From assembly GCF_026151205.1 (NCBI RefSeq), contig NC_087080.1:11333837-11393836 (forward strand): a stretch of DNA of 60,000 nt. The letters are read 5' to 3'. Below, piece after piece: positions 19,436 through 58,669 of the stretch. The translations under genes were made by a program, and so were the position numbers. The stretch comes from Bolinopsis microptera. Taxonomy: Eukaryota; Ctenophora; Tentaculata; Lobata; Bolinopsidae. Each line of letters starts with the position of its first letter. The first letter of the stretch is position 1. The notes below the pieces were generated by a model. It was not told the DNA's origin. It did not search any database and saw nothing but the letters and a program-made list of their open reading frames with translations.

Positions 19436-19479
19436 AGGCCTCCCCCAGCCTCGGATCTTAGGATTAGATTTGCAAAAAT

Positions 19480-20773: not shown

Positions 20774-20830
20774 TGATGTACTCATGAAATTTTTGATGTA
20801 GTTATTTAGTTATTTATTCACCCCTTCTTA

Positions 20831-22582: not shown

Positions 22583-22631
22583 TAAGAAGGGGTAAATATA
22601 TATTTACATCAAAAATTTCATGAGCACATCA

Positions 22632-22700
22632 CCGGAGTAGCTTAGCGGCCAGGCGATCGGCTAGCTATGCGCGAGGTCGGGAGTTCAAACCTGCGTGAAC
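22632..22700 (+). other. tRNA-like (SINE head) segment, right arm
   Basis: TAGCTTAGCGGCCAGG at 22638 fits the Pol III A box (TRGCNNAGYNGG) except at the last position. GGTCGGGAGTTCAAACC at about 22675 fits the B box (GGTTCRANNCC-like). The spacing is about 37 bp, as in tRNA genes. The acceptor and T stems do not pair well, so this is not a good functional tRNA. A tRNA-derived SINE head is more likely. Confidence 0.5.
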
Positions 22701-23479: not shown

Positions 23480-23930
23480 TTGTATCTAAAGATTTTTCGC
23501 TGTCTCAGGTTTTCTTAAATTTTGTCTCAGGATTTTTCGCTGTCTCAGGTTTTCTTAAATTTTGTCTCAGGATTTTTCGCTGTCTCGGGATTTCTTAAAT
23601 TTTGTCTCAGGTTTTTTCGCGCGTCTCAGGATTCTTAAATTTTGTCTTAGGTTTTTTCGCTGTCTCGGGATTTCTTAAATTTTGTCTCAGGTTTTTTCGC
23701 TGTCTCGGGATTTCTTAAATTTTGTCTCAGGTTTTTTCGCTGTCTCAGGATTTCTTAAATTTTGTCTTAGGATTTTTCGCTGTCTTGGGTTTCCTTAAAT
23801 TTTGTCTCAGGATTATCTGCTGTCTTAGGTTTCCTTAAATTTTGTCTTAAGACTTTTCGCTGTCTTAGCTTATTTTGACATCTCAGGTTCGCTTAAATTT
23901 TGTCTCAGCTTTTTTTGCAGTCTTAGCTTT
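23480..23930. repeat. 40-bp tandem array, right arm
   Basis: Mirror of the left-arm array. Units read TTCTTAAATTTTGTCTCAGG plus TTTTTTCGCTGTCTCGGGAT. The right array runs slightly further than the left and its terminal units are more diverged (for example TTTGACATCTCAGG at about 23873). Confidence 0.85.
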
Positions 23931-24002
23931 TCTTAATCAGTTTGTCTTAGGAATTTTTGCAAATCCAATCCTAAGATCCGAGGCTGGGGGAGGCCTTTAT
24001 AC

Positions 24003-35903: not shown

Positions 35904-35941
35904 GTTGCTATCTAGAGATAGTAATTTGAGTATGATTTTTA

Positions 35942-38900
35942 CTCTAGTAGCAGGGAGGGATTGAGTGTGCACTTCGATGTACAGAGTTTTTTGATACTGA
36001 ATCGGGTTAATTAGGTCATTGATAACTCAAATCACCGAGGGGCACATTTTGTGTCGCTAGTCACAACCCTGTGGGGGCCACGCCCATATTTCACATTAGG
36101 CGCATATATGGGAAATATGTATCTCAGCTTCTGAAGGTCTTAGAGACTCAAACTTTGGCTTAAAATGACCGCAATGCACATATTTATATTGACACTATGA
36201 AGGGTATAAAGGCCCAAAATGCTTACTTTTGGAAAAAATCCAGAAAAACCGATTTTCACTGGGGCGAGAGTGAAAAAATCTACTCTAGAAGCTTATTGAC
36301 ATCGAGCATGCAGTTTGGTGTCTACAACTTTTCTAGAAACCAGGTCTTTTGTAAGGTCATTCTGGATCAGAATTGATAAGGTACGCAATTTCTATCAGTA
36401 ATCCCAACCCTAGGGGGAAATTTCTAAATTACCCTGAGGCGCAAATATATGACTTTTGTATCTCGGCTTCTGAACGTTGTAGGGGCCTCTCTTTTACCTC
36501 AAACTAACTGCAAAGGCCACATTTATTAACAAGCTATAAAGCAACATAGGGTTTATAGTGCTTAGTTTTGGAGATATTCATTAAAAACTGTTTTAACTTT
36601 CGTGCATCCTAAATTAGTAACACATGTACTTAATTTTGGTATCCCGGGCATGAACACATTCAGATAATATTTATGGAGCAACACAATTCAGTTTCAGAAG
36701 CTCCTTCCAGCTATCCATCTCTCTGGTTACTTCAAACCACTTCAATCCCCAAATTTATACATGAAAATCTAACTATCTCGTTATATCTACCACAAGTTGG
36801 GCTCTCTCCTGTACTGTTTGGCTGTTATGGCTAATCACTCCAATCCAACCTCATGTTGTAGAATCTACTTCTAGCTACCTTTAATTCTGCTACCTCCATG
36901 CCATGCCTATTCTACACAGCTACCACCAGCACGTTATAATTCTAGCTCTTTCTAGCAACCTCTGAATGCTACCTCCTGCTCTATACGGGTACCACCAGTG
37001 GGCAGAAACCACCAACTCCAGCTCTTTTCACTTACTTTGGCTACATCTATTTAGCTGCTACTGCAAGGCCCCCTGGCCCCTCCAACCTCTGCTCATTCTA
37101 GCAAACTTAACTTAAGCTACCTCTTGCCTTTTATAACACCACCAGCAACAATTTATTCTGGCTCTTTCAGGCTGCCTCAGCTGCATTCAACAATTTCCAG
37201 TTCATTGAGGAAGAGGAAACCTGCTATTTCTAGCAACCTCTGAATGCTACTTCCTGCTCTATCTAGCTTCCACCAACACCCACTAATTGTTGTTACTTGT
37301 TAAGCTACCACTAGCACCTGCAAATTATAGCCCTATCCAGCAAACTCAGACTACATTATGCTCTATCCAGATAGCACAAGCACCCTAAAGTTCTAGCTGG
37401 AGCCTGGAGGTAGCCTGAATTAGGTAAAACAGATAGAATTTGAGAGTGCTCATTTAACTGAATAAGGATGGATGTAGCCCGAAGTAACTAGAAGAAGCTA
37501 AAATTTGTGGGTACCGTTTGCTAGTGTTAGCTGGATAGAGCAGAAAGTAGTCTGAGGTTGCTGGATAGTGCTAGAATTTGCAGGTGCTGGTGATAGCTGT
37601 TTGTTTGTTTGTTTGGGGACCGGTTTTTGGTACACCGGCCAATGAGCTGCAGCTGAACAGAGTAGGAGTAAGTCTGAGGTTGCTGGATATGGCTAGAATT
37701 TGCAGTGCTAGTTGTAGCATAACAACAATTATTGGGTGTTTGTGGAAGCTAGATAGAGCAGGAAGTAGCATTCAGAGATTGTTAGAAAGAGCTAGAATGG
37801 AGGTAGCAGAATTGAAGGAAACTAGAAGTAGATTCTACTACATGAGGTTGGATTGGAGGTAATTAGCCATAATAGCCAAACAGTACTGAAGAGAGCCCAA
37901 CTTGTGGTAAGACCGGGATCCCGGCTTAATCCCGGTCCCGGTCTTAATCCCGGTCCCAGCACTTTTTCCCAGTCCCGGTCAAAGAAGCAGTCTCGGTCGA
38001 TCCTTGGCTTTAACGAGATGGAAGCAACCAGAGGGATGGTTAGATGTATAAATTTGGGGATTGAAGTGGTTTGAAGTAACCAGAGAGATGGTTAAATGTA
38101 TAAATTTGGGGATTGAAGTGGTTTGAAGTAACCAGAGAGATGGTTAGATGTTTACATTTGTGGATAAGATAAGATAGCTGGAAGGAGCTTCTGAAACTGA
38201 ATTGTGTTGCTCCATAAATATTATCTGAATGTGTTCATGCCCGGGATACCAAAATTAAGTACATGTGTTACTAATTTAGGATGCACGAAAGTTAAAACAG
38301 TTTTTAATGAATATCTCCAAAACTAAGCACTATAAACCCTATGTTGCTTTATAGCTTGATTATAAATGTGGCCTTTGCAGTTAGTTTGAGGTAAAAGAGA
38401 GGCCCCTACAACGTTCAGAAGCCGAGATACAAAAGTCATATATTTGCGCCTCAGGGTAATTTAGAAATTTCCCCCTAGGGTTGGGATTACTGATAGAAAT
38501 TGCGTACCTTATCAATTCTGATCCAGAATGACCTTACAAAAGACCTGGTTTCTAGAAAAGTTGTAGACACCAAACTGCATGCTCGATGTCAATAAGCTTC
38601 TAGAGTAGATTTTTTAACTCTCGCCCCAGTGAAAATCGGTTTTTCTGGATTTTTTCCAAAAGTAAGCATTTTAGGCCTTTATACCCTTCATAGTGTCAAT
38701 ATAAATATGTGCATTGCGGTCATTTTAAGCCAAAGTTTGAGTCTCTAAGACCTTCAGAAGCTGAGATACATATTTCCCATATATGCGCCTAATGTGAAAT
38801 ATGGGCGTGGCCCCCACAGGGTTGGGACTAGCGACACAAAATGTGCCCCTCGGTGATTTGAGTTACCAATGACCTAATTAACCCGATTCAGTATCAAAAA

Positions 38901-38946
38901 ACTCTGTACATCAAAGTGCACACTCAATCCCTCCCTGCTACTAGAG
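35942..38946. mobile_element. 3.0-kb palindromic element at a TA site
   Basis: The ends are CTCTAGTAGCAGGGAGGG and its inverse, with TA immediately outside each (35940-35941 and 38947-38948). The outer arms are near-identical inverses for about 790 bp (to about 36725 and from about 38160), including GTGGGGGCCACGCCCATATT. Inside these, the arms remain related but degenerate to a centre near 37440. They are made of 60-70-bp repeats around AGCTACC, CTGCTCTATC and CCACCAGCACC. A TTTG array and a CCCGGTC-rich patch (37905-38000) occur only in the right half. No protein is convincing. The superfamily is unknown, and a TA duplication suggests mariner-type mobilisation. Confidence 0.75.
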
Positions 38947-38959
38947 TATTTGGTTTTGC

Positions 38960-40862: not shown

Positions 40863-40945
40863 TCCATTCCCCGTGTTTTCGTGTCTGTAAACAGTAAGCA
40901 GCAGGCTTTGACATTATCCTGCGCAGGAAACTGGGGTTTTAATAG

Positions 40946-41420
40946 TAATCAAGTATCTGACCAAAAATCCGTACAATCATTTGAGTATAGTAGGTTTGTG
41001 ATGTTATTTGGCTCCAGAAGGGTCTATAGATCAAAAAAAATTTGGGTGGAAAAAAAGTTATGTGTCTATAAAGTCTGTGGCCACGCCCTTTTATACGATC
41101 GTGGGAAAATCTTACATGTTCCTGAAATAAATTCATGTTCTGATAATAAAAGCAGATAGGGTATCAAAACCAATGTTTTTTGGCTCGGGAAATCGATTGG
41201 CGATGTCTATTTGAGTCTCAGACCACTCCCTGATAAGACAACCACGCCCATATTGATAATTTATCTTCAAAATTCCCAAACTTTTAAGTTATTTTTTGGA
41301 CAAGTTGGGTGTCGAAACCAATGTTGTTTGGCTCGGGAAATCGATTGGTGATGTCACTTTGACTCTCAGACCACCCATTAATAAGATAACCACGCCCAAT
41401 TTGATAACTAAGATTGCCGT
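40946..41420. repeat. Left TIR with two 148-bp sub-repeats
   Basis: The outer 210 bp (to about 41158) is unique. It is followed by two units starting GGGTATCAAAACC (41159) and GGGTGTCGAAACC (41307), each with GGCTCGGGAAATCGATTGG and AAGA(C/T)AACCACGCCCA. It is the near-exact inverse of the right TIR, apart from the number of units. Confidence 0.85.
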
Positions 41421-41701
41421 TAAAATTGATTAATATAAGATAGGAGCTGTTTGTCCCATGCGAAATATATAAAAAAAATCAGCATTACGTGAGGTAAACT
41501 AACAATTAAATTAAGGTGATTTTTGTAATATAATATGCATATCGATAAAATTGAACCCAAGCTGATAATAAAATGCGCAGTGCACCTGTTTAAAGCACCT
41601 TTTTGGACATTATCAGTTCCCTTGTCCTCGATACCTTAAATTTAATGTCGTACTCGAACGTTCTTTGTCGCACACTGCCGTGATGGATTGAATTCTTTAT
41701 C
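41421..41701. promoter_or_regulatory. Probable transposase promoter/5' UTR region
   Basis: This is the only space between the TIR sub-repeats and the first coding exon, so the promoter must lie here or in the TIR. I see no unambiguous TATA box. An in-frame stop at about 41681 precedes the chosen ATG. Confidence 0.3.
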
Positions 41702-43649
41702 ATGTGTGATCCCTCACCCAGTGGATCAGGCTTACAGACGATTGATCTTAAAATAAATGCCAGAAAAGTGTTTAATCCAGCTAAGCACTGCGTGTTTTGT
41801 TTAGACGGAGGTCGTCCATTCAACCCTTCGCTGAAACTCAGCTCATCTGAAAATGGCCGAGCAAAGGTTAAACAGGTAAATGAAGGTGTACTAGTACATA
41901 TATATTCTAATATTGTTACGAATTACGATGCTACTGATCCATCGATGATATGACAAAGTAAACTAAATTGTGTTAATAACCTATATATTATATTACCTGA
42001 GGCCATCGTTAATGCAACTATAATATATTTAAGGCTGCAGAAACCAGGGAAGATGAAACAATGTTAAAGAGAATAGAGCAAGCTCCAGAAACATTTTTGT
42101 ACCATGCCAAGCAGTACAAATGCTACAAAGAATACGTTCTGCAAAAAACTCTGGATAACATTGCTGCCACTAAACGAGCCAGAGAGGAGGCTGTCGGGGT
42201 ATGTATTCAATAGTTCAATTGTGAACATCGTCACAAACAAATCAACAGCTCCGTTTCAAATAGTTTTGTTAAATCCTAGCAAACAAATTGGTTTCTTTAG
42301 TTTAACCAATATTTTCTGATTTCTAGAGTTTAGAGGAACAGATAGAGGATAACGAAAGGCCGAACATGGGTAGAAATACTAGAAGCAAGACTACCTCAGA
42401 AAGAAATACAGCTAGTAAGAAAAACTGTGATTTGAATAAATTGCTCGTCTTCAAAATACTAAAATAGAAAGAAAATCGCGAATCTGTCATTTGTCAAGTT
42501 CAGCTTTACAATTGTTATGTAATCAGTACCAAAATTATCTTTTATTTCAGGCTCAGAGCAACCGAATGCATGGGTTATTAGTGAACAAATCAGATGTATC
42601 TGTTGCAACTCAACACAAATTGTGATAAGCAGCAAAAGAATCCGTGAAAAATATCGAGTTTGTGAGAAGAATAGGGCCCAGCTTATTCTTGCTGCAGTAA
42701 GGATGTTTCCTGATGACGATATTTCTGTTAGAATGGCTGATATCAACGATGAAGAAGCATTGTTAGCTCAGGATATCTATTATCATAAGCCGTGCCTTGA
42801 AAAACTGCTTTCTCGTTACTACCGAAATCAGACAGTCTGTACTCTTTGCTCTGAAACAGTGAATAAGCAATACCATCTTCTGAGCGTCGAGGAGGTGAAA
42901 GGCTTGCTTGAAAAAAGTCGTGCAAACAGGGATATAGAGCTTGCTGCTAAACTTTTGGGAAAGTATAATGAAGAGAGGGGGTGTATCATTTCGTTCATAT
43001 ACGCTCATTCCCATTGTAAATTAAATTACTTGTCTTCAGATGACCCCTCTAAGATAGCCATTTATGAAATGCACGTGATCCCCTTGATAGAAGATCTTCT
43101 CTCAAAAGAATATGGCATCACGCTTTCCCAGATACGGGAATTCGTCTCAGAAAAAGTCCCAGGCGTTACATTTTACAACCACATGATTAAGAATTTTCTT
43201 CTAAGACGTTTTGCTGGACGAATATCATTTTGCCCTCCATATAGGAAAAATGAAGCTGAAGTCGTTTTTCCGTCCTCTATTGACCCTAAACTTATGGTAG
43301 CTAAACTGCAAGTTCTTAACGAGTTGAAGTCAGCAGGCAAGTTTCTTCGAGGCAAATTGAAAGAGATGTCCTTTGGGCTAGAGGACAGCTTCTGTGATGC
43401 TAACGATCTTAAGGCGTCTGTAAGAAATACTCGAATGCCAGAATCTGTTATGGAATTTTTAGGAGCATTGCTAAATATCAGCAAAGCTGATTTTGTCCGA
43501 TTCCAGAAACGGGTAGGCGATGAGGAACTGCCAGAATATAACGATGATGAAGACGATGTGGAGAACGATAATACAAACGGACGTATCCCAAAGAAAATTC
43601 TGAAAGCCAACTCTTTGTTTCAGATTATGTTTTACATCGTTAACAACGG

Positions 43650-43665
43650 CAACAAGACTTGTGTC
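43650..43665 (+). other. Frameshift 1 in the transposase-like gene
   Basis: Coding before this point (NNGNKT) is in one frame. Coding after it (PFHVMFAHAIYEICK) is two bases out. The local sequence ACTTGTGTCC suggests one extra GT (or TG) dinucleotide. No intron can explain the shift. Confidence 0.6.
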
Positions 43666-44509
43666 CTTTTCATGTTATGTTTGCTCACGCAATATATGAG
43701 ATCTGTAAAAGTAGAGGTTTAATCACAATTGGCGAACACCTAGGTTTCTGTATCAGTTATCCGACCCTGTTAAGAATGCGTGCATTACTTGGATTCTATG
43801 TCATGTGTTTGTGCAGACTAGGGAACGTACCACTGCCAAGTCACTTCAACACATATGATCCAATGACAGTTTCTCTAGATAACTTTGACCATACTGATGC
43901 ATCATCTTCAACAGGAAAGAATGACACACATGACAGTGTCATGGTTTTATTCCAGAGAATTCCATTTGGCATGGGCCATTTATCCTTTACATCCAAAGGA
44001 AAAATATCTCATTACACAGATTTTGTGATACAAGGCCGAAGGTACATATCTAGTTTACCTTGCCAGCAACTCCAACCTTTCTACTTCGGGAGTAAAAGTC
44101 AACCACTTCCTTTGAGTTTCTCCTCAGAAAAGTTTGTTTACGAGCCTAATGAGAAGAAAGAAGAGGCTTTGCAACTTGCCAGGAATCTAAACTTACCTGC
44201 ACAGGCTAGTAGTAGTTTTTACTCTGTTAAAGTTCCGTCCTGGGCTGGATGTGAAAGTATCATCTCAACATCTGATGATATACCTTTAAGTAAAGTCGGC
44301 TTTGGTCCCACAGTGCCTTACCCAATAACAGACATTCAGACTGTGTATACATGTCTTAGAAATTGTGACAACATCGTATCTCAGTTGCGTCAAAAAACTC
44401 TTCCAGTGGTATGCGACGAAGGAGTTTACCATTTAGTCACTAAAATCTACCTGCAGCAGCCAGAACTGTTCTCGAGGATATTTCCCATGCTTGGTGGATT
44501 TCACTTGAC

Positions 44510-44526
44510 TAAAACGGCCCGGCCTT
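44510..44526 (+). other. Frameshift 2 in the transposase-like gene
   Basis: GGFHLTKTA before and LHCAGKFLKGSG after are two bases out of register. ACGGCCCGGCC looks like a 2-bp gain within GC-rich repeats. It has the same direction and size as the first shift. Confidence 0.6.
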
Positions 44527-45809
44527 GCACTGTGCAGGAAAATTTTTGAAGGGGTCTGGAGTCGAGGACATATTCATAGAATGTGGAATCTTTGGTCCGA
44601 AGACTGTAGATTCAGTAATGAATGGAAAGCATTACTATCGTTCTTTAGAGGGTCTTACAATTCTAAGTGATTCTATGACGAGAATGAAAATGAAGGCTTT
44701 TTGGAAAGAGCACCCACCGCAAAACTACTCTGATGCTATAGTTAAGCTGGAACGATTTCAGAAAGCTCTTTGTGACAACAATAAGGCAGTTTCTCAATCG
44801 GTTATGTCTGACCTCTTAGAATGTAATACTGTCAATAAGTTAAAACAGGATATTGATTGTTTTGAGAAAGTTTGTTCGCAAAGCTCGTCACAATGCAAGT
44901 ATTGGTTCAACTTTCTGAAAATCATGAACCTCATAAGAAACTTCATACGATCAGAAAGAGATGGCGATTTTTTGCTGAATATGAAGACCATTCAAGACCT
45001 GTTACCTGTGTTTCTTGGTTGTGACAGTCTAAACTATCTAAGATACGGCTCTTTTTACTTGGAGCTTCTCAAAAATGTCAAGCACACTCATCCAGAGTTA
45101 TATGACTCCTTTTTGAAGAAGCATTTTGTGATAAAGAGAACCTCGGGGTCATTTAACGCAGTGTCGCCAGATCTTGCTCTTGAACAAACAATACAACGTA
45201 GTTCAAAGAGTTCACACGGAATCATAGGGCAGACTAGGAAACAGGAATACGCTGCGGAATGGGCCCTCATTTACCACGAGGTTCTCTCTATAACCAACAC
45301 CTTTAGGGAGATAACAAACTCGGATAAAGGAGGGAACACGGAGACTGCCAATGCATCTTCCCACCATCATTTAAGTCCTAGAAAGATTCAAGAGATCAAT
45401 GCTCGCACTGACAGTATCTCGAGTTATATAAGTAGTCAAGGAAATCCATTCTGCAAGGAGAATCACGACAAAGTTAAAAACCTTGTAACGCAAGTTTATG
45501 CTGAAGACAGTGTTGCCAAGATGCATTATGATTTCTTTGAGATTGTATCTGAAAAGTATGACGAGTTCCAAAAATCAGTTTATAAAGAAAAGACAAGGTT
45601 ATTGGCAGACAAGATCAGCAAGATAAATTTACTTCCTGTGGATCATGTTACAGCTGCTAAATCAGATGCCACTGAAACGTCAATCAAGAAAAACGAGCGA
45701 GCTTCAAGGCTGGCAATCAAAATCCTTTCTATAGCAAAAAGTAAAGATGGAGATTTAGCAAGAGTTCTTAAGTATGATATTACAAACTACAGTACGCTCT
45801 TCAATGGTT

Positions 45810-45814
45810 CTTTG
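45810..45814. repeat. Outer copia target duplication CTTTG (left)
   Basis: Matches 56420-56424 exactly, directly outside the outer LTRs. Five bases is the standard Ty1/copia duplication. Confidence 0.9.
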
Positions 45815-45947
45815 TGTTAATCTTATATACCATTTACAGGATGGCAGAAACTCCAGGAGGCTTTGTCTGACTTGATTTGTATTCCTCGTTTGAAGTTTAT
45901 GTTTCTATCATCCACTAGTGTTACTGTCTCACTTTATTGAATTAAAA
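45815..45947 (+). repeat. Outer copia 5' LTR (LTR1), 133 bp
   Basis: Starts TGTTAATCTTATATACC and ends GAATTAAAA. The ends are imperfect inverts (TGTTAA/TTAAAA instead of TTAACA). It is identical in its diagnostic positions to LTR4 at 56287-56419. Confidence 0.9.
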
Positions 45948-45960
45948 GTGATAGCAGGAA
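45948..45960 (+). promoter_or_regulatory. Primer-binding site, outer copia
   Basis: GTGATAGCAGGAA lies directly between the LTR and the gag ATG. TGATAGCAGGA differs by one base from the site of the gag remnant at 16171-16161 and is close to the complement of the initiator-Met tRNA 3' end. The same sequence occurs at 46332-46344 in the inner copy. Confidence 0.55.
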
Positions 45961-46198
45961 ATGTCGGAAAATCAAGTGAACAGTAGTGGACCACCTATCC
46001 CTAAGTTAGGAGATTCTTATCTTTTGTTCAAGAAAGAAGTGAAATTGTGGTCGGCAACCACATTGATCGAAGAAAAGCGTCAAGCAGGATGTATTGTTTT
46101 TATGTTACCTCAGAAGGCTAAGTCTGAGGCAGTGGAAGTTCCACTTGAAGTATTACAAAATGGCAGAACAGACACAGTAGAAGGTGCTGAAGTAAAGA

Positions 46199-46331
46199 TG
46201 TTAATCTTATATACCATTTGCAGGATGGCAGAAACTCCAGGAGGCTTTGTCTGACTTGATTTGTATTCCTTGTTTGAAGTTTATGTTTCTATCATCCACT
46301 AGTGTTACTGTCTCACTTTATTGAATTAAAA
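46199..46331 (+). repeat. Inner copia 5' LTR (LTR2)
   Basis: 133 bp, matching LTR3 at 51422-51554 at the positions that distinguish the inner from the outer pair. Confidence 0.9.
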
Positions 46332-46344
46332 GTGATAGCAGGAA

Positions 46345-49300
46345 ATGTCGGAAAATCAAGTAAACAGTAGTGGACCACCTATCCCTAAGTTAGGAGATTC
46401 TTATCTTTTGTTCAAGAAAGAAGTGAAATTGTGGTCGGCAACCACATTGATCGAAGAAAAGCGTCAAGCAGGATGTATTGTTTTTATGTTACCTCAGAAG
46501 GCTAAGTCTGAGGCAGTGGAAGTTCCACTTGAAGTATTACAAAATGGCAGAACAGACACAGTAGAAGGTGCTGAAGTAAAGACATCGGGATTAGACTGCC
46601 TCCTGGAGGTCCTTGATGGAATTTATCTTGAAGATTTGGCTAAGGAAAAGTTCAAGACTTATGACATGTTCAGAAAGTTAGGTCGGGAAGGAAGCCAAGA
46701 TGTCAAGGAGTTTATTTCGTCATTCGAAAAAGTTGTAAAACGAATGGAAGAGCATGATATTAAGCTTCCACAACCTGTTCTAGCGTATGAATTACTTAGA
46801 AGTTGTAATGTTAGTGATTACAAGTATTCTGTTGCCATTACTATGTGTGGCGACTTAACATACACTAACATGAAAGAAACGATAAAGAAGATCACAACTA
46901 TGAAAGATCCAGAAAATTCACACCAGAGAATGATTGGTGTAGTTAAAGAAGACTCTACATTTTATACTGGTAACTCCTGTATTGAAAATCAGTTTAATAT
47001 GTATGATGAATACGAAAATGAAAATGAAGTACTGAATGCTCAGGAAATGGAGCAGCATGCATATTACAGCCAAGGAAGAAGTGGCTATTCGGGAAGAGGA
47101 TACCGGGGATATGGCTTTAGAAGAGGAAATGGTAGAGGAGCCAGAGGATACCGACAACAGAATCAACAGCAGGAAAGTCAACATCAGGTAGCTGCGGGTG
47201 TCAGAAGTGACAGAAAAATGAACCCAACAGACAAATATGGGCGGCATTTTACTTGTAATGTTTGCAAGTCGATTTACCACTTTTCTAGAGATTGTCCAGA
47301 ACGCCGCAGAATAAACAAAAGTGGAAATCAGGTAACGAGTGAGAATGTAAATCTCTTTATGAATGCTCCTGCCCAAGAAGAGAACTCAAATGTTATGGAC
47401 CAATTTACCAGTGACAACTTTGGGTTAGCAGTTCTTGACAGTGGATGCAACAAAACGGTTTGTGGAAAGGAATGGTTGAAAGTCTATCTTCAGTCGCTGT
47501 CTCCAGAAGATTTCATTAAGGTGTGCTATGAAGAGAAACATGTATCGTTTAAATTTGGAGATAATGCACCATCAAAGTCAAGGACATGCTGCACATTCCC
47601 AGCCGTTGTATGTGACAAACAGGTGGCACAAGTTGTTGATGATCAGATTCCATTACTGATTAGCAAACAGTCAATGAAAGATGCTAGAATGGTATTGGAC
47701 TTTGGAGATGACACAGTGAAGGCTTTTGGTGTAAAGCAGAAAATCATCTTCAATGAATCAGGACACTGTAGCATCCCTCTGAGCAAGAATACTATCCATC
47801 AACAAGTCTGCTTATGTAAATCAGGAGAGGAAATTGTAAACCTGACCATGGAAAGTACTGACAAAAGAAAGATAGCGATTAAGCTACATAAGCAATTCGC
47901 CCATCCCCCACCTGAAAAGTTAAAGTCACTCTTAAGAACAGCAGGACAGCTTACCAAGGAAATTGCTCGAGAGATTGACACAGTATCGTCTAACTGTGAT
48001 GTGTGCAAGAGATACAAGCGACCGAATAATCGTCCAGTAGTCTGTATGCCTTTAGCCAAAGACTTCAATGATACCGTTGCCATGGATATTAAGGTGTACG
48101 ACAAGAATAAAAACATTTACATCCAGCACATGATTGACCATAAAACCAGATTCTCTGCTGCAAAAGTTATCAGGTCAAAAGACAAGGAAACCATTGTGGA
48201 AAGTGTCTTTACACACTGGATCAACACTTTTGGACCACCGAAGAAGTTCATGAGTGACAATGGAGGGGAATATGTTAACAAAAGTTTTGTTGACCTCTGT
48301 GAGAAATTCAACGTTCATATCATCACTACTGGAGCTGAAGCACCTTGGAGCAATGCCCTTGTAGAACGGCACCATGCCCTTTTGTCTAACAGTATGATAA
48401 AGATCATGGAAGATACTAAATGCTCAGTTGAAGTTGCTTTAGCATGGGCCTGTCATGCCAAGAACACTTTGGCAAATGTAAATGGTTTCTCGCCATATCA
48501 GTTAATCTTTGGCAAAAATCCATCTCTCACTTCTATTGATGATCCCTATGCTAGTCCTACGATTGTTGAAGATGAGAGTCCAAGTGAAACTGTTGCCAAG
48601 AACATCTCTGCCATCTACAGTGCTCGAAAAAGAATGATGGAAAGCGAAGCTAGTGAGATGATCAGACGAGCCATTAGATCAAAAACTAGAGAAGTGTACA
48701 CTGATGAGATACAGTCGGGTGACATGGTGTACTACAAAAGAAATGATGATAAGCGATGGCGAGGACCAGGAACAGTTATAGGTGTGGACAAGAAAGTTGT
48801 AGTTGTAAGACATGGTGGGTATATTGTTCGATGCCACCGGATTCATGTTGTCAATGTAAATGAACTGTACTCAAAAGATGTTTCCGAAGTAAGTGGGACC
48901 GATCCACCAGATGAGCCTAATCCCACTGTTGAAGAATTTTACAATGCAACTCAAATGCTGAAAAATGATGTTCTGTTGAACGCTTTCGATAATGCTCCTG
49001 CTGAAGAGGATGATAATAATACTGTAAGCACAGATAATATACCACAAAGCAACGAAACTAATGTAGAGGAATCAATGTCTACAAAGGAGCAGAAGTTCTG
49101 CAAAGCTAAGTCAAAGTATGAGAAGAAGAAGGTCAGTATCGAAGTGTTAAACACTGACCCCTATAAGTCACAGAAGACTGACGAAATCGAAAAATGGAAG
49201 CAAAACAATGTGTATGAAGAGGTTGAGGCTCACGAAGTAGATGATCAGTTTGTCCCCATTTCGACAAGGTGGGTCACAAATGACAATGGTCATAAGAAAA

Positions 49301-50628
49301 AGGCCCGTTTGGTAGCTCGAGGTTTTGAGGAAATTCCTCTTGATAGTACCGAAAGAGTCAGTCCTACTTGTCGAAAAGAATCTCTAAGACTTCTATTCAC
49401 AGTAGCAGCATCAATGAAGTGGCCTATTCATTCTCTTGATATAACCTCAGCATTTCTACAAGGTAAACCAATTGAGCGACTAGTTTATCTTACCCCTCCA
49501 AAGGAATGCTATAAACCAGGAATACTGTGGAAGCTGAACAAATGTGTTTATGGACTGTCAGATGCTGCAAAGATGTGGTACAGAAATGTAAAAGACCACA
49601 GTGAACAAGCTGGTTTAAAGAAATGTTTATATGATGATGCTCTGTTCTTTTCAAGAGTTGACAAAGAAGATCTTGCAGGAATAATGACTGTACATGTAGA
49701 TGACTTCATCTATGCAGGGACCAAAGGTTTTGAGTCTAATATTCACAAAGATGTGCTGCATGGATTTGAGATTAAGTCACAGGAAGCATCGCGATTCACA
49801 TATCTTGGACTTGAGGTGGAACAAGATCCAATCTCATATGAAATCACTGTTGGACAGTCAGATTATATCAGTGCTTTAAAGACCATAGGACTATCAAGTA
49901 ACAGAAGAAGCCAGAAAACACATGCTCTGACTCACGAAGAGTATGTACAGTACAGATCAGGTGTTGGACAACTTATCTGGTTATCTGTCCAAACCAGACC
50001 AGATATTTCGTTTGATGCTTGTCAGTTGAGCAATAATCTGAAAGATCCCAACGTTTCAGACATAATGCTTCACAACAAGATAGTCAAAAAGCTTAAAACT
50101 GATGAAGATGCCCCACTGACCTTCAGAGAACTGCCTAACATAAAGAATGGAGTAAGACTACTTACATACAGTGATGCATCGTTTGGAAATCTTAGTAACA
50201 ATGGTAGTCAGTGTGGGTATCTGATACTTATTTCGGATAAAGATGGTAGAGTCAAAAACCCTGTCTGTTGGAAATCTGTAAAGTTGGACAGAGTCTGTTA
50301 CAGTACTTTAGCCGCTGAAAGCCTTGCACTCCTGAAAGCGGCTGATCACACCATTTTTATTCAGCAAACACTACAACAAATACTGGGAGATTCTTTAAAT
50401 GTGACCATAGACTGTTTTATTGACAATAAAGGACTTCTAGAGCTTGTACAGAAGACAAAGGACCCCATTGAAAAAAGACTGATAGTTACCATGGCATCAC
50501 TAAGGGAAATGGTTGAGAAGGGTGAAATAACTGTTAACTTTATGCCCTCAAGGACGATGCCTGCTGATGTTTTGACTAAGAGAGGGCCTAGTTCTCAAAG
50601 TCTGCGTATGTGTTTTGAGAGGGACTAG
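46345..50628 (+). CDS. gag-pol: Copia gag-pol polyprotein, 1,427 aa, inner copy
   Basis: This single open frame encodes all proteins of a Ty1/copia retrotransposon. Approximate residue positions: gag N-terminus 1-240, an Arg/Gly-rich segment near 245-270 (RGYRGYGFRRGNGRG), a CCHC zinc knuckle at 302 (CNVCKSIYHFSRDC) and protease DSG at 364. Integrase has an HHCC domain at 513-552 and catalytic residues Asp 579, Asp 636 and Glu 672 (D35E spacing). RT has DITSAFLQG at 1030 and VHVDDFIYAG at 1117. RNase H has SDAS at 1275, AAES at 1323, DNKG at 1360 and a last Asp near 1406. The integrase-before-RT order defines copia. No frameshift separates gag from pol. The start ATG lies 13 bp after the LTR. 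All catalytic residues are present. Confidence 0.95.
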   Translation: MSENQVNSSGPPIPKLGDSYLLFKKEVKLWSATTLIEEKRQAGCIVFMLPQKAKSEAVEVPLEVLQNGRTDTVEGAEVKTSGLDCLLEVLDGIYLEDLAKEKFKTYDMFRKLGREGSQDVKEFISSFEKVVKRMEEHDIKLPQPVLAYELLRSCNVSDYKYSVAITMCGDLTYTNMKETIKKITTMKDPENSHQRMIGVVKEDSTFYTGNSCIENQFNMYDEYENENEVLNAQEMEQHAYYSQGRSGYSGRGYRGYGFRRGNGRGARGYRQQNQQQESQHQVAAGVRSDRKMNPTDKYGRHFTCNVCKSIYHFSRDCPERRRINKSGNQVTSENVNLFMNAPAQEENSNVMDQFTSDNFGLAVLDSGCNKTVCGKEWLKVYLQSLSPEDFIKVCYEEKHVSFKFGDNAPSKSRTCCTFPAVVCDKQVAQVVDDQIPLLISKQSMKDARMVLDFGDDTVKAFGVKQKIIFNESGHCSIPLSKNTIHQQVCLCKSGEEIVNLTMESTDKRKIAIKLHKQFAHPPPEKLKSLLRTAGQLTKEIAREIDTVSSNCDVCKRYKRPNNRPVVCMPLAKDFNDTVAMDIKVYDKNKNIYIQHMIDHKTRFSAAKVIRSKDKETIVESVFTHWINTFGPPKKFMSDNGGEYVNKSFVDLCEKFNVHIITTGAEAPWSNALVERHHALLSNSMIKIMEDTKCSVEVALAWACHAKNTLANVNGFSPYQLIFGKNPSLTSIDDPYASPTIVEDESPSETVAKNISAIYSARKRMMESEASEMIRRAIRSKTREVYTDEIQSGDMVYYKRNDDKRWRGPGTVIGVDKKVVVVRHGGYIVRCHRIHVVNVNELYSKDVSEVSGTDPPDEPNPTVEEFYNATQMLKNDVLLNAFDNAPAEEDDNNTVSTDNIPQSNETNVEESMSTKEQKFCKAKSKYEKKKVSIEVLNTDPYKSQKTDEIEKWKQNNVYEEVEAHEVDDQFVPISTRWVTNDNGHKKKARLVARGFEEIPLDSTERVSPTCRKESLRLLFTVAASMKWPIHSLDITSAFLQGKPIERLVYLTPPKECYKPGILWKLNKCVYGLSDAAKMWYRNVKDHSEQAGLKKCLYDDALFFSRVDKEDLAGIMTVHVDDFIYAGTKGFESNIHKDVLHGFEIKSQEASRFTYLGLEVEQDPISYEITVGQSDYISALKTIGLSSNRRSQKTHALTHEEYVQYRSGVGQLIWLSVQTRPDISFDACQLSNNLKDPNVSDIMLHNKIVKKLKTDEDAPLTFRELPNIKNGVRLLTYSDASFGNLSNNGSQCGYLILISDKDGRVKNPVCWKSVKLDRVCYSTLAAESLALLKAADHTIFIQQTLQQILGDSLNVTIDCFIDNKGLLELVQKTKDPIEKRLIVTMASLREMVEKGEITVNFMPSRTMPADVLTKRGPSSQSLRMCFERD

Positions 50629-50855
50629 TATTTTTAAAGAGTGAACATCGAATTTATTTTTTATTTATGGATTTATCGTTTATATTTTTAGCTTTTTCAT
50701 ACATTTTAATGTCATTTTTGTTTTGAGTCAGAATCTTTATTTTTTACTTTTGCAGATTAGTTTTTAAAATCAGTGCGTGTGAGTTTCATGGGATTTTTAA
50801 AGTGCAAACTAAGTTATTTGCCTAGTTTTGCTATGATTATTAAAATGTTTACTTA

Positions 50856-50897
<42 letters not shown>

Positions 50898-51421
50898 AAA
50901 GACCGAAGTCCCGGCCAATAGCCTGGTTCCCCTGGGTTGTTGTAAAATGATAATATAAAAATCCGAAGTCCCGGTCAGTAACCTGAACTGTGTTTAGGAT
51001 AACTGAAAAAAAAAAAAAAAAAAAAGAAAAAGAAAAGGGGATATATATTAGTCAGTTGAGACACCTGTTTAACCTCCCTCTGAAGTCCTCCTTTATGAGG
51101 CAGCCTTTTAGCCTGCATAACTCTTTGTGGAGCTGGTATTGATTTGTTTGTTTTGGTTCATTACCACTGGCTTTTAAGTTAGTTGAGAGGATTGCATAAT
51201 CTATCCTCATATCACGCCCATCTCATTTAATCATCATTCACATATGGCCATTTATACACAGAAGAAAGAAGATTTATAAAGATCTACAGAAGAAGCATTT
51301 CTAAACAGCTGCCAACGCCTAACAAATAAGTTCTCCTGCTACATGTTCTGGTATCCGTGAAGATCGCCTAATAAAGCCGGATACCGTGAAGAAACAGAAA
51401 GAAAAAATAAAAGAGGACTGA
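50629..51421 (+). other. Inner copia 3' UTR with 34-A run
   Basis: Contains a run of 34 A at 50861-50894 and two copies of CCGAAGTCCCGG (50902 and 50962), 60 bp apart, in a stretch missing from the outer copy. A second A-rich run follows at 51006-51025. The polypurine-like AAAAGAGGACTGA precedes the 3' LTR. Confidence 0.75.
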
Positions 51422-51554
51422 TGTTAATCTTATATACCATTTGCAGGATGGCAGAAACTCCAGGAGGCTTTGTCTGACTTGATTTGTATTCCTTGTTTGA
51501 AGTTTATGTTTCTATCATCCACTAGTGTTACTGTCTCACTTTATTGAATTAAAA
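51422..51554 (+). repeat. Inner copia 3' LTR (LTR3)
   Basis: Same 133-bp LTR as LTR2. Its terminal A run overlaps the AAAGA duplication, so its last base is ambiguous by one position. Confidence 0.9.
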
Positions 51555-51558
51555 AAGA

Positions 51559-54500
51559 CATCGGGATTAGACTGCCTCCTGGAGGTCCTTGATGGAATTT
51601 ATCTTGAAGATTTGGCTAAGGAAAAGTTCAAGACTTATGACATGTTCAGAAAGTTAAGTCGGGAAGGAAGCCAAGATGTCAAGGAGTTTATTTCGTCATT
51701 CGAAAAAGTTGTAAAACGAATGGAAGAGCATGATATTAAGCTTCCACAACCTGTTCTAGCGTATGAATTACTTAGAAGTTGTAATGTTAGTGATTACAAG
51801 TATTCTGTTGCCATTACTATGTGTGGCGACTTAACATACACTAACATGAAAGAAACGATAAAGAAGATCACAACTATGAAAGATCCAGAAAGTTCACACC
51901 AGAGAATGATTGGTGTAGTTAAAGAAGACTCTACATTTTATACTGGTAACTCCTGTATTGAAAATCAGTTTAATATGTATGATGAATACGAAAATGAAAA
52001 TGAAGTACTGAATGCTCAGGAAATGGAGCAGCATGCATATTACAGCCAAGGAAGAAGTGGCTATTCGGGAAGAGGATACCGGGGATATGGCTTTAGAAGA
52101 GGAAATGGTAGAGGAGCCAGAGGATACCGACAACAGAATCAACAGCAGGAAAGTCAACATCAGGTAGCTGCGGGTGTCAGAAGTGACAGAAAAATGAACC
52201 CAACAGACAAATATGGGCGGCATTTTACTTGTAATGTTTGCAAGTCGATTTACCACTTTTCTAGAGATTGTCCAGAACGCCGCAGAATAAACAAAAGTGG
52301 AAATCAGGTAACGAGTGAGAATGTAAATCTCTTTATGAATGCTCCTGCCCAAGAAGAGAACTCAAATGTTATGGACCAATTTACCAGTGACAACTTTGGG
52401 TTAGCAGTTCTTGACAGTGGATGCAACAAAACGGTTTGTGGAAAGGAATGGTTGAAAGTCTATCTTCAGTCGCTGTCTCCAGAAGATTTCATTAAGGTGT
52501 GCTATGAAGAGAAACATGTATCGTTTAAATTTGGAGATAATGCACCATCAAAGTCAAGGACATGCTGCACATTCCCAGCCGTTGTATGTGACAAACAGGT
52601 GAACATTGTGGCACAAGTTGTTGATGATCAGATTCCATTACTGATTAGCAAACAGTCAATGAAAGATGCTAGAATGGTATTGGACTTTGGAGATGACACA
52701 GTGAAGGCTTTTGGTGTAAAGCAGAAAATCATCTTCAATGAATCAGGACACTGTAGCATCCCTCTGAGCAAGAATACTATCCATCAACAAGTCTGCTTAT
52801 GTAAATCAGGAGAGGAAATTGTAAACCTGACCATGGAAAGTACTGACAAAAGAAAGATAGCGATTAAGCTACATAAGCAATTCGCCCATCCCCCACCTGA
52901 AAAGTTAAAGTCACTCTTAAGAACAGCAGGACAGCTTACCAAGGAAATTGCTCGAGAGATTGACACAGTATCGTCTAACTGTGATGTGTGCAAGAGATAC
53001 AAGCGACCGAATAATCGTCCAGTAGTCTGTATGCCTTTAGCCAAAGACTTCAATGATACCGTTGCCATGGATATTAAGGTGTACGACAAGAATAAAAACA
53101 TTTACATCCAGCACATGATTGACCATAAAACCAGATTCTCTGCTGCAAAAGTTATCAGGTCAAAAGACAAGGAAACCATTGTGGAAAGTGTCTTTACACA
53201 CTGGATCAACACTTTTGGACCACCGAAGAAGTTCATGAGTGACAATGGAGGGGAATATGTTAACAAAAGTTTTGTTGACCTCTGTGAGAAATTCAACGTT
53301 CATATCATCACTACTGGAGCTGAAGCACCTTGGAGCAATGCCCTTGTAGAACGGCACCATGCCCTTTTGTCTAACAGTATGATAAAGATCATGGAAGATA
53401 CTAAATGCTCAGTTGAAGTTGCTTTAGCATGGGCCTGTCATGCCAAGAACACTTTGGCAAATGTAAATGGTTTCTCGCCATATCAGTTAATCTTTGGCAA
53501 AAATCCATCTCTCACTTCTATTGATGATCCCTATGCTAGTCCAACGATTGTTGAAGATGAGAGTCCAAGTGAAACTGTTGCCAAGAACATTTCTGCCATC
53601 TACAGTGCTCGAAAAAGAATGATGGAAAGCGAAGCTAGTGAGATGATCAGACGAGCCATTAGATCAAAAACTAGAGAAGTGTACACTGATGAGATACAGT
53701 CGGGTGATATGGTATACTACAAAAGAAATGATGATAAGCGATGGCGAGGACCAGGAACAGTTATAGGTGTGGACAAGAAAGTTGTAGTTGTAAGACATGG
53801 TGGGTATATTGTTCGATGCCACCGGATTCATGTTGTCAATGTAAATGAACTGTACTCAAAAGATGTTTCCGAAGTAAGTGGGACCGATCCACCAGATGAG
53901 CCTAATCCCACTGTTGAAGAATTTTACAATGCAACTCAAATGCTGAAAAATGATGTTCTGTTAAAGGCTTTCGATATTGCTCCTGCTGAAGAGGATGATA
54001 ATAATACTGTAAGCACAGATAATATACCACAAAGCAACGAAACTAATGTAGAGGAATCAATGTCTACAAAGGAGCAGAAGTTCTGCAAAGCTAAGTCAAA
54101 GTATGAGAAGAAGAAGGTCAGTATCGAAGTGTTAAACACTGACCCCTATAAGTCACAGAAGACTGACGAAATCGAAAAATGGAAGCAAAACAATGTGTAT
54201 GAAGAGGTTGAGGCTCACGAAGTAGATGATCAGTTTGTCCCCATTTCGACAAGGTGGGTCACAAATGACAATGGTCATAAGAAAAAGGCCCGTTTGGTAG
54301 CTCGAGGTTTTGAGGAAATTCCTCTTGATAGTACCGAAAGAGTCAGTCCTACTTGTCGAAAAGAATCTCTAAGACTTCTATTCACAGTAGCAGCATCAAT
54401 GAAGTGGCCTATTCATTCTCTTGATATAACCTCAGCATTTCTACAAGGTAAACCAATTGAGCGACTAGTTTATCTTACCCCTCCAAAGGAATGCTATAAA

Positions 54501-55613
54501 CCAGGAATACTGTGGAAGCTGAACAAATGTGTTTATGGACTGTCAGATGCTGCAAAGATGTGGTACAGAAATGTAAAAGACCACAGTGAACAAGCTGGTT
54601 TAAAGAAATGTTTATATGATGATGCTCTGTTCTTTTCAAGAGTTGACAAAGAAGATCTTGCAGGAATAATGACTGTACATGTAGATGACTTCATCTATGC
54701 AGGGACCAAAGGTTTTGAGTCTAATATTCACAAAGATGTGCTGCATGGATTTGAGATTAAGTCACAGGAAGCATCGCGATTCACATATCTTGGACTTGAG
54801 GTGGAACAAGATCCAATCTCATATGAAATCACTGTTGGACAGTCAGATTATATCAGTGCTTTAAAGACCATAGGACTATCAAGTAACAGAAGAAGCCAGA
54901 AAACACATGCTCTGACTCACGAAGAGTATGTACAGTACAGATCAGGTGTTGGACAACTTATCTGGTTATCTGTCCAAACCAGACCAGATATTTCGTTTGA
55001 TGCTTGTCAGTTGAGCAATAATCTGAAAGATCCCAACGTTTCAGACATAATGCTTCACAACAAGATAGTCAAAAAGCTTAAAACTGATGAAGATGCCCCA
55101 CTGACCTTCAGAGAACTGCCTAACATAAAGAATGGAGTAAGACTACTTACATACAGTGATGCATCGTTTGGAAATCTTAGTAACAATGGTAGTCAGTGTG
55201 GGTATCTGATACTTATTTCGGATAAAGATGGTAGAGTCAAAAACCCTGTCTGTTGGAAATCTGTAAAGTTGGACAGAGTCTGTTACAGTACTTTAGCCGC
55301 TGAAAGCCTTGCACTCCTGAAAGCGGCTGATCACACCATTTTTATTCAGCAAACACTACAACAAATACTGGGAGATTCTTTAAATGTGACCATAGACTGT
55401 TTTATTGACAATAAAGGACTTCTAGAGCTTGTACAGAAGACAAAGGACCCCATTGAAAAAAGACTGATAGTTACCATGGCATCACTAAGGGAAATGGTTG
55501 AGAAGGGTGAAATAACTGTTAACTTTATGCCCTCAAGGACGATGCCTGCTGATGTTTTGACTAAGAGAGGGCCTAGTTCTCAAAGTCTGCGTATGTGTTT
55601 TGAGAGGGACTAG
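51559..55613 (+). CDS. gag-pol: Copia gag-pol, outer copy, 3' portion
   Basis: This is the continuation of the outer element's gag-pol after the inner insertion. Its first 79 codons are at 45961-46198. It has the same domains as the inner copy: zinc knuckle, DSG protease, HHCC/DDE integrase, RT with VDD, and RNase H. It differs by very few substitutions (for example KAFDIAPAE versus NAFDNAPAE) plus three extra residues (NIV) near 52605. An apparent start at 51525 lies in the inner LTR and is not a real N-terminus. The frame itself is otherwise intact. Confidence 0.92.
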
Positions 55614-56286
55614 TATTTTTAAAGAGTGAACATCGAATTTATTTTTTATTTATGGATTTATCATTTATATTTTTAGCTTTTTCATACATTTTAATGTCAT
55701 TTTTGTTTTGAGTCAGAATCTTTATTTTTTACTTTTGCAGATTAGTTTTTAAAATCAGTGCGTGTGAGTTTCATGGGATTTTTAAAGTGCAAACTAAGTT
55801 ATTTGACTAGTTTTGCTATGTTTATAAAAATGTTTACTTCAGTAACCTGAACTGTGTTTAGGATAACTGAAAAAAAAAGAAAAAGAAAAAAAAAATGAAA
55901 AGGGGATATATATTAGTCAGTTGAGACACCTGTTTAACCTCCCTCTGAAGTCCTCCTTTATGAGGCAGCCTTTTAGCCTGCATAACTCTTTGTGGAGCTG
56001 GTATTGATTTGTTTGTTTTGGTTCATTACCACTGGCTTTTAAGTTAGTTGAGAGGATTGCATAATCTATCCTCATATCACACCCATCTCATTTAATCATC
56101 ATTCACATACGGCCATTTATACACAGAAGAAAGAAGATTTATAAAGATCTACAGAAGAAGCATTTCTAAACAGCTGCCAACGCCTAACGAATAAGTTCTC
56201 CTGCTACATGTTCTGGTATCCGTGAAGATCGCCTAATAAAGCCGGATACCGTGAAGAAACAGAAAGAAAAACTAAAAGAGGACTGA
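55614..56286 (+). other. Outer copia 3' UTR
   Basis: Closely matches the inner 3' UTR but lacks the A-run/CCGAAGTCCCGG segment. The junction reads TTTACTTCAGTAACCTG near 55836. It ends in the same purine tract before LTR4. Confidence 0.8.
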
Positions 56287-56419
56287 TGTTAATCTTATAT
56301 ACCATTTACAGGATGGCAGAAACTCCAGGAGGCTTTGTCTGACTTGATTTGTATTCCTCGTTTGAAGTTTATGTTTCTATCATCCACTAGTGTTACTGTC
56401 TCACTTTATTGAATTAAAA
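56287..56419 (+). repeat. Outer copia 3' LTR (LTR4)
   Basis: Pairs with LTR1 by shared variants. Followed by CTTTG at 56420-56424, and then by the interrupted transposase-like gene in its original frame. Confidence 0.9.
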
Positions 56420-57915
56420 CTTTGATGGTAAAACCAATAAAAAATAAAATGAGGGAGGAACTTGAAAAGAAAGCATCCTTCAAAACTGATGATCTCATAT
56501 GCAATCCTTCTAACGAGGAGTCTGTTGTGGTCGACTTTATGTCGTTCATTAGAGGACAAAGCTTGGACACAAGAGTTAAAGACCTGAAAGCACCGTCTTT
56601 ATTTGGAATCCAAGATAACCCCTCAGCCTGGACATTCGGGATGATGGTGGCAGAGGCATTTGCTAGAGTTTTCAAGAGGTTTCCCGATGTAGCACCTTTT
56701 CACATCGTTTTTGACAGCTACATGGACAACTCTCTTAAAGGCGGTGAAAGAGCCACCAGGATTGCAGCAGCTGGCGGTATTATCCGCCTAGCGAGAATAA
56801 GAAGCGACACTAAAGTTCCCGAACAGATGCAGAAGTTTTGGGCATGCTCTGCAAACAAAGAAAAGTTCCAGAGCTTTGTAACGTCACATGTTTGTGATTT
56901 GGCTCGTAAGGTCAAAATATCAATCATTTTTAGTGGTACAGTAGTGGAAAATGTCTCTAAACCAGCACTCCATCTAAATGAACTGGGTAATGTACAACAA
57001 ATCGACCAGCTGAACTTCAAATACGAAGAAGCAGACCTCAGGATAATACCACATATTGGATGGGACATAACTATGTTTTCAAGGTCTCGTATCACAGTGG
57101 TATCAGAGGATACTGATGTACTGGTGTTGCTGTTACACTACTTTGAAAAATTTCATTGTCTCGGGTTGCAGAACTTATTCTTGCAGCTTGGTAAAGGTGA
57201 GAAGCGAAGGATGTTGCCAGTGCACATAATGTTTGAAAGATTCGGAAAAGACTTTTGTCGAGAAATTCTCAGTGCACATCTAGCAACAGGATCTGATCAC
57301 CTAAGCAAAGTGGGGTCAAAGAGATGTGCACTGACTGCTGACCCGGAGAAAAGTCTTTGCAATTTTGGCAAAACGGCGATTTTAGACGAGGAGCAACTAA
57401 AGGTCGCAGAAGAATATCTTGTGAATGTGTTATCAGCTTCAAATGGAGTCAAAACATTTGATGAGCTTAGAGTTCAGGTTCACAAGAAAACTGGTTCTGC
57501 TCTTGGTCTTCCTCCAACCTCTTATTCTATAAGGACTGGGCATATAAGGAGATGGTGGTACCTTTTGAAAGAAAGTTCTAGTCTTTTAACACCAGAACAT
57601 GAACGCTGTCTCCTTAATGCTCTTGAATACGGTTGGGAAGATCAGGAGGGCGACCTTTATGCCAATAAGCAACTTCACCTCATTCCTGATGAACTTTGCA
57701 ACACTTGCCGATGTAAAACTGGATGCAAAACTAAACATTGTTCTTGTGTTAAAGCGGAAGGGTCAAAATGTTCAGACTTTTGCCTTTGCATTAATTGCGA
57801 AAACAAATGACCATACTTCTGATTTTATTTATTTTTATCATTAATAGCCATTATGTTTAAATATTTTATTATTTTGATGCAACCTATTTCAAAAACTGTT
57901 TCAATTTAATTCTGT

Positions 57916-58483
57916 GTGGTAATAGACATAACCAACCGATTTCCTGTGCCAAAAACAACGGTTTGAACACCCAACTTGTCCAAGAAAATCACTTAAATTT
58001 TTGGAAATTTCGAAGCTCAATTGTGAATATGGGCGTGGTCATCTTATCAGGGAGTGGACTGAGAGTCAAATAGACATCGCCAATCGATTTCCCGAGCCAA
58101 AAAACATTGGTTTCGACACCCAATGTGTCCAAGAAAATCACTAAAATTTTTGGGAATTTTGAAGCTCAATCGTGAATATGGGCGTGGTTATCTTATCAGG
58201 GAGTGGTCTGAGAGACAAATAGACATCACCAATCGATTTCCCGAGCCAAAAAACATTGGTTTGGATACCCTATATGCTTTAATTATAAGAATATGAATTT
58301 ATTTCAGGAACATGTAAAATTTTCCCACGATCGTCTAAAAGGGCGTGGCCACAGACTTCATAGACACATAAATTTTTTTCCACCCAAATTTTTTTTGATC
58401 TATAGACCCTTCTGGAGCCGAATAACATCACAAACCTACTATACTCAAATGATTGTGCGGATTTTTGGTCAGATACAGGATTA
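57916..58483. repeat. Right TIR with three 149-bp sub-repeats
   Basis: Inverse of the left TIR, but with three sub-repeat units (CACCC junctions at 57968 and 58117, TACCC at 58266) instead of two. The innermost unit is the most diverged (CAACCGATTTCCTGTGCC). The outer 210 bp matches the left arm closely. Confidence 0.85.
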
Positions 58484-58669
58484 TAGTTGACAAATTGGAA
58501 GAGAAAACAGATGGGAATTATTCTGAAGACTAGTGTATTACTTTTAATTAACGTTGATATTTGGTCACTAATTTTTACATTTTATGATTTATGATTTATG
58601 AACATGGCAATGGACAAAATGAAAATAATAATTTACCGCGTATTTATACTTCATATCACGAATCTTAAC

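Follow-up and report, generated by a model that had tools for sequence, protein, structure and literature searches.

The nuclease of Academ DNA transposons is of the XPG type. Two Academ lineages are distinguished in the excerpt of PMC10045372 available to us: AcademX, tied to a nuclease, with target site duplications (TSDs) of 3 or 4 bp, and AcademH, tied to a helicase, with TSDs of 9 or 10 bp. A RecQ helicase in Academ appears in an excerpt of PMC3627910, a table in the available part of PMC9004415 names an Academ-1_NV transposase, and 100 curated bivalve Academ consensus sequences (mean length, 5,565 bp), checked for terminal inverted repeats (TIRs) and TSDs, are described in the accessible portion of PMC10294476. 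We describe here an element of the ctenophore Bolinopsis microptera at positions 40946 to 58483 of a 60,000-nucleotide stretch of contig NC_087080.1 (the window; G000:C9:11333837-11393836). It belongs to a TIR transposon present in many copies and has TAG on either side, and we consider it very probable, from motifs, TIRs, and TSD length, that the copy is an inactivated member of the nuclease lineage (AcademX) of Academ-type cut-and-paste DNA transposons. Genome searches were run over the 264.65-Mb assembly (232 contigs).

Results

The ends of the window copy are inverted arms at 40946 to 41295 and 58134 to 58483 (350 nt, 93% complementary), as an earlier note made from the letters alone had observed in reporting matched arms about 17.5 kb apart. 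Aligned in full, the arms match over 454 bp at 91%, with TAATC... as their outermost matching bases, and TAG stands directly outside both tips (40943 to 40945 and 58484 to 58486) as an exact 3-bp duplication. The 5' TIR (40946 to 41415, plus strand; tip, TAATCAAGTATC) contains subterminal repeats of about 149 bp, and the 3' TIR (57921 to 58483, minus strand; tip, TAATCCTGTATC) holds 2.4 copies of a 149-bp repeat at 57921 to 58270. The number of these repeats varies from copy to copy; across copies, the TIRs are 0.4 to 0.6 kb long, and longer in palindromic copies.

The C-terminal coding segment has 59 matches in the genome, window copy included, and the TIR stretch has 90, many of which are its inner repeat units. 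An intact element is about 7 kb long: eight full-length relatives measure 6.8 to 7.05 kb, among them L001 (contig C11; 7,044 bp), which has both TIRs, a single open frame of 1,556 codons, and a C-terminal segment 95% identical to that of the window. Relatives with all or part of the same build fall at about 52% (L011 and L012), 26 to 28% (L013, L014, and L016), and 20 to 24% identity (L015 and L017 to L021), and one distant family alone yields at least 116 matches. No relatives were found in viral contigs and phage records. The gene or a part of it is enclosed by TIRs in L001, L011 to L014, L016, L017, L019, L023, and L024. The tie between gene and TIRs proposed in the earlier note thus holds outside the window: other copies carry the TIR and the gene together, and the gene is not single-copy, the two points on which that note had let its reading hang.

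A scripted comparison of flanks gave a 3-bp TSD in 35 of 39 related copies (17/19 in a first set and 18/20 in a second) and a 4-bp TSD in 0 of 36 (0/16 and 0/20). A shifted-offset control on the first 16 copies put the chance rate at 0.025, with no more than 6 of 16 at any other offset within 6 bp. Four extra pairs inspected by eye had a TSD at C10:12828891 and none at C1:12666945, C2:19169930 (altered tips), or C13:2917337, bringing the overall count to 36/43. These counts omit L005 (right tip truncated), L006 (other tip outside the stretch), L015, L018, L020, and L021 (no TIR pair around the gene), L026 (no inverted repeat), L022 (inverted repeat running to the stretch edge), and L025 (tandem fragments); L003, like L001, has no TSD. 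A search for further copies with the same TIR start and TAG-like duplications, suggested in the earlier note, was productive as to copies and 3-bp TSDs, but TAG itself did not recur: the duplicated sequence differs among copies, TAG belongs to the window copy only, and a TAG-specific target was rejected.

Two comparisons record movement of whole units. L008 matches L009 at 99.7% identity along exactly 3,527 bp, beyond which the flanks differ, and L012 and L024, which lie on two contigs, share 6,973 bp at 99.5% identity. Ratios of nonsynonymous to synonymous substitution rates (dN/dS) were 0.13 to 0.21 (six usable values), and therefore the protein is kept by selection. A comparison of L001 with the window XPG segment (23 codons) fell out of frame and was excluded. 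Long open frames under purifying selection would also suit a host gene, or a domesticated transposase, lying between unrelated inverted repeats. The many copies, exact TIR-to-TIR units, differing flanks, and 3-bp duplications speak against this, and for the family it was rejected on the TIR and TSD results; we regard it as extremely improbable. The transposon, then, is a mobile unit that duplicates 3 bp at its target and whose protein is under selection.

Four terminus types were found: TAATC (the focal clade), TACTC (L013, L014, L016, and the window element at 35940 to 38948), TAGTTAGGG (L017), and TAGTACAG (L019). Every type starts with TA and shows 3-bp TSDs. The element at 35940 to 38948, a nonautonomous unit of 3,009 bp from the L013/L014/L016 family, lies about 2 kb upstream of the focal transposon and has 776-nt arms at 99%, a TTT TSD, and tips reading TACTCTAGTAGCAGGG. 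Two oversized tip-to-tip units were also seen, one of 17.9 kb at G000:C13:13659553-13677434 (TSD, AAC) and one of 11.3 kb at G000:C8:13096889-13108151 (no TSD), both probably enlarged by later insertions. L025 (G000:C6:15386900-15396600) consists of three head-to-tail copies of a transposase-XPG fragment (period, about 2.5 kb), 99.8 to 99.9% alike.

The earlier note had taken the interior of the window copy for a single spliced gene of about 1,690 codons; that gene was rejected, its supposed intron (45815 to 56419, plus strand) being two nested Copia elements, foreign to the DNA transposon. The insert has an integrase before an RVT_2-type reverse transcriptase, long terminal repeats (LTRs) of about 131 bp, and a 5-bp TSD, CTTTG, at 45810 to 45814 and 56420 to 56424. 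The inner Copia (46199 to 51554, plus strand; LTR starts, 46199 and 51422) is nested in the gag of the outer one, with a duplication AAGA of 4 to 5 bp that is ambiguous in an A run. Its frame matches the Pfam families rve (E = 8e-11, residues 578 to 664) and RVT_2 (E = 4e-31, residues 970 to 1185). The LTRs of the outer Copia are identical across 131 compared bases, as are those of the inner. The transposon copy was later split by one Copia, which itself took in a second.

What remains of the transposon gene, all on the plus strand, lies at 42551 to 45814 and 56425 to 57810, together with small putative 5' exons. The first part of the main exon (42551 to 43655), up to the first frame break, holds the zinc-module region (CICC at 42595 and CTLC at 42838) and is 96.9% identical in amino acids to L001 (dN/dS, 0.21; 360 codons). 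The second part lies in a shifted open frame (43644 to 44549) with the first aspartate of the core (D1, 43878 to 43880), the second (D2, 44415 to 44417), and a conserved GxxH (44502 to 44504), and the third in a frame shifted again (44513 to 45814; dN/dS against L001, 0.14 over 417 codons) with the predicted catalytic glutamate in DLALEQ (45182 to 45184). The fourth (56425 to 57810) encodes the XPG/FEN1-like nuclease acids (D56533, D56713, E57028, D57034, D57109, D57115, and D57295) and a CXC tail (57706 to 57798). The frame breaks, placed by eye, fall near 43,655 to 43,665 and 44,515 to 44,530, where L001 has one continuous frame. With the nested Copia insertion and two frame breaks, the window copy is therefore dead.

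Three small 5' exons are plausible: this part of the copy can be aligned with L001, and the protein of exon 2 is 59% identical to L011 over 54 amino acids. Their splice sites were set by eye. Exon 1 (41702 to 41875, with a CVFC module) is proposed from an open frame with protein similarity to L001, exon 2 (42034 to 42198) is similar in both L001 and L011, and exon 3 (42327 to 42416) has a splice phase that fits exon 4.

The protein combines a likely transposase with a flap-nuclease-like region and, at its C terminus, a cysteine-rich tesmin/TSO1-like CXC tail. The CxxC modules, SLDNFD, CDEGVY, EEAD, EDTDVLV, and the CXC cluster singled out in the earlier note are all present. The IECG glutamate, which the note had listed among the candidate catalytic acids, was rejected as third catalytic residue, since it is not conserved among families (KKSG, SHCG, or IRCG elsewhere); the conserved glutamate is that of DLALEQ. 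An alignment of eight sequences has an invariant DN, second D, GxxH, SG, and glutamate in (L/I/M/Y)EQ or LEK, this DN...D...GxxH...SG...E series being kept wherever covered (7 of the 8 sequences at each site). In L001 the acids of this Asp-Asp-Glu (D-D-E) core are D452, D631, and E885, spaced by 178 and 253 residues, and their window equivalents are D43878, D44415, and E45182.

The C-terminal half carries the motifs VVVDF, VFD, EEAD, DTD, and G(C/S)D...G. Across ten sequences at 21 to 95% identity to the window, D, E/D, AD, DTD, and G.D are conserved in the XPG region, an arrangement that we take to be the layout of the active-site acids of FEN1 and EXO1. A profile of the XPG-CXC segment searched against PDB matched Exonuclease 1 weakly (E = 0.015) and the CXC domain of LIN54 (E = 0.0016). 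The Pfam family TCR (CXC) matched 5 of 10 members at an E value of 1 or less, above the curated cutoff in L015 (24.6 bits) and L017 (27.1 bits); the window's own segment had no TCR match.

In the TAATC clade, the two tips of a copy are almost never alike. The clade has 78 exact tips (0 in a reversed-pattern control), and all 31 tip pairs within 20 kb have TAATCCTG at one tip and TAATNNAG at the other, the latter in the variants CAA, AAA, AGA, ACA, or TAA. Every pair combines a T at position 7 of one tip (T7) with an A at position 7 of the other (A7; 0/31 matching), and no shuffled pairing in 200,000 trials, shared descent ignored, reached 31/31 unlike. Sixteen of the 78 exact tips have no partner, including two ACT tips and one CGT tip. 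A mismatch-tolerant search (at least 101 places) with fetched tips added, among the matches listed, six unlike pairs (C1:12666945, C10:12828891, L001, C14, C2:19169930, and a degenerate pair at C2:12200765) and a single pair of like tips at C13:2917337 (CCT/CCT), where a 3-bp TSD is absent. The degenerate pair (C2:12200765/12201322, 558 bp apart) enters the unlike count and lies outside the TSD test. The TAATC-tip families thus have unlike tips (...CCTG versus ...NAG) in 37 of 38 pairs among the matches listed.

Such a pattern could be neutral founder inheritance without function, with gene conversion between TIRs stopping short of the last few bases, and we give this reading nearly an even chance. 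Each copy does inherit both ends, and interior inversion by recombination between TIRs keeps the ends unlike; it can also explain why the CCT end lies downstream of the gene in the window copy, L001, and L011 and upstream in L012, L023, and L024. This flip of polarity is not evidence for selection, because TIR recombination would flip the polarity and leave the pairing unchanged. Less easily reconciled with neutral inheritance are positions 15 to 18, which agree between ends in 29, 31, 29, and 29 of the 31 pairs (all four in 25) yet vary among subfamilies, whereas position 7 never agrees. The T7 tips, moreover, are uniform (CCT in 35/38) and the A7 tips variable (CAA, 17; AAA, 14; AGA, 7; ACA, 1; TAA, 1). 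Finally, in the sister TACTC family (100 of 115 places), all 37 pairs agree at positions 20 and 21, and 36 of the 37 agree at variable position 6.

The concerted neighboring positions and the contrast with the TACTC family are evidence for distinct ends, limited by shared descent. The unlike tips are a new observation and suggest, short of proof, ends that differ in function. We tentatively propose, at somewhat less than an even chance, an end-pairing rule whereby only units that pair a T7 end (TAATCCTG) with an A7 end (TAATNNAG) would be competent to transpose, the TIRs otherwise evolving in concert.

Palindromic derivatives are frequent. In the distant family, the matches (at least 116) merge to 78 places, and of its neighboring pairs within 10 kb, 17 of 18 are oriented (-,+), none (+,-), and one (-,-). 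The (-,+) pairs are palindromic copies in which each arm has its XPG-CXC coding end facing outward (e.g., C5:3833931-3836683 and C7:17145819-17148491). L008 has arms of 1,405 bp, 80% of the element.

Elsewhere in the window, a long interspersed nuclear element (LINE)-like element (18455 to 25936; endonuclease, 18455 to 19216; reverse transcriptase, 23975 to 25936) seems to have been interrupted by a foldback element about 4.5 kb long, whose arms measure 611, 365, and 333 nt and which has 40-bp tandem repeats at each end. A second reverse transcriptase fragment lies at 29029 to 29988 on the minus strand (RVT_1; E = 4e-7).

Discussion

A working model can be drawn from these parts. The N-terminal zinc modules and the CXC tail would bind the TIRs, and the D-D-E core would cut both ends and attach them at target positions separated by 3 bp. 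Trimming of flap or branched intermediates during excision or joining may fall to the XPG-like nuclease. If the gap left by excision is repaired while one long TIR misanneals to the other, the frequent palindromic derivatives could result. Were the end-pairing rule true, the transposase would read a tip mark of two to three bases and refuse two like ends. The 12/23 rule of RAG demands unlike ends, and the proposed rule can be likened to it. Unlike tips amid TIR positions that otherwise change in concert offer a handle on how eukaryotic transposases distinguish left from right ends.

The exact ends of elements combining a transposase with XPG-like and CXC parts are now fixed in this genome, and therefore uncharacterised proteins built in this way can be classed as belonging to transposons. 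The earlier note had hoped that this copy would help define the ends of the mobile unit; other copies show exactly where it ends. The hope is not new in itself, since ends of Academ elements are already in print, as the excerpt of PMC10294476 indicates.

The Academ-type reading is well supported by multicopy linkage of TIR and gene and by 3-bp TSDs, and it gains support from the weak profile matches to XPG and CXC. Of the form in which the earlier note had put it, the span as one gene and the third catalytic residue did not survive. Several results tell against it. L001, the open-frame copy, lacks a TSD and its tips are altered (GTATC), and no gene-enclosing TIR pair occurs in the examined stretches of L015, L018, L020, L021, and L026. 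The first D of L021 is placed differently by an earlier whole-protein alignment and the later eight-sequence one. No transposase family was matched with confidence in Pfam. The one candidate, DUF6589, a domain of unknown function, scored below cutoff and was rejected as a family label, its genome-wide search yielding two weak places only. The Exonuclease 1 match comprises two stretches, at the N and GCD motifs and in the correct order, neither being significant alone; a whole-protein profile retrieved LIN54 (E = 0.015) and CXC proteins and no Exonuclease 1, and L001 alone as query gave two chance-like chains only. The XPG-CXC segment of the window copy has no hit in Pfam, XPG included, at an E value of 1 or less, and its single-sequence structure model is poor (mean predicted local distance difference test score [pLDDT], 34), so the folds are proposed from sequence. 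The comparison with Academ, lastly, was made against published descriptions, and membership is for that reason inferred.

These points leave room for a TIR transposon with transposase, XPG-like nuclease, and CXC tail from a superfamily other than Academ, either undescribed or another one with 3-bp TSDs. The comparison by description, the sub-threshold DUF6589 as sole Pfam hit, and the want of a paper combining Academ and CXC in the literature searched would fit such an assignment. The TSD length and the nuclease-like part fit the description of AcademX (PMC10045372, in excerpt), Academ elements of similar size are common in bivalves (PMC10294476, in excerpt), and an Academ-1_NV transposase is on record (PMC9004415, in excerpt), so we hold a non-Academ superfamily to be unlikely. 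The element is best filed as Academ-type, pending sequence comparison.

Set beside known proteins, the C-terminal half resembles XPG/FEN1 nucleases such as Exonuclease 1 in its acidic residues and GCD...G motif, and LIN54/tesmin proteins in CXC cysteine spacing; it differs from both in being very divergent (profile E values, 0.015 and 0.0016). Kolobok elements target TTAA. The KolobokE, KolobokP, and KolobokD groups likewise join a transposase to an accessory nuclease, but in the part of PMC9587614 available to us, these nucleases are PD-D/ExK, His-Me finger, or DEDDh enzymes, not XPG. AcademH, the other Academ lineage, has 9- to 10-bp TSDs and a helicase (PMC10045372, in excerpt), whereas the element has 3-bp TSDs and a nuclease-like part; AcademH was rejected on TSD length, and the proteins scanned with Pfam had no match to a helicase family. 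A CXC tail and unlike tips were not found described for Academ in the literature searched, and for the CXC tail such a lack of joint mention is weak evidence that it is undescribed. With Academ, the element shares TIRs and a length of the same order (6.8 to 7.05 kb here, against a bivalve mean of 5,565 bp in the excerpt of PMC10294476), and with AcademX, as described in the available part of PMC10045372, it shares a probable element-encoded nuclease and short TSDs (3 to 4 bp there, 3 bp here in 35 of the 39 scripted copies).

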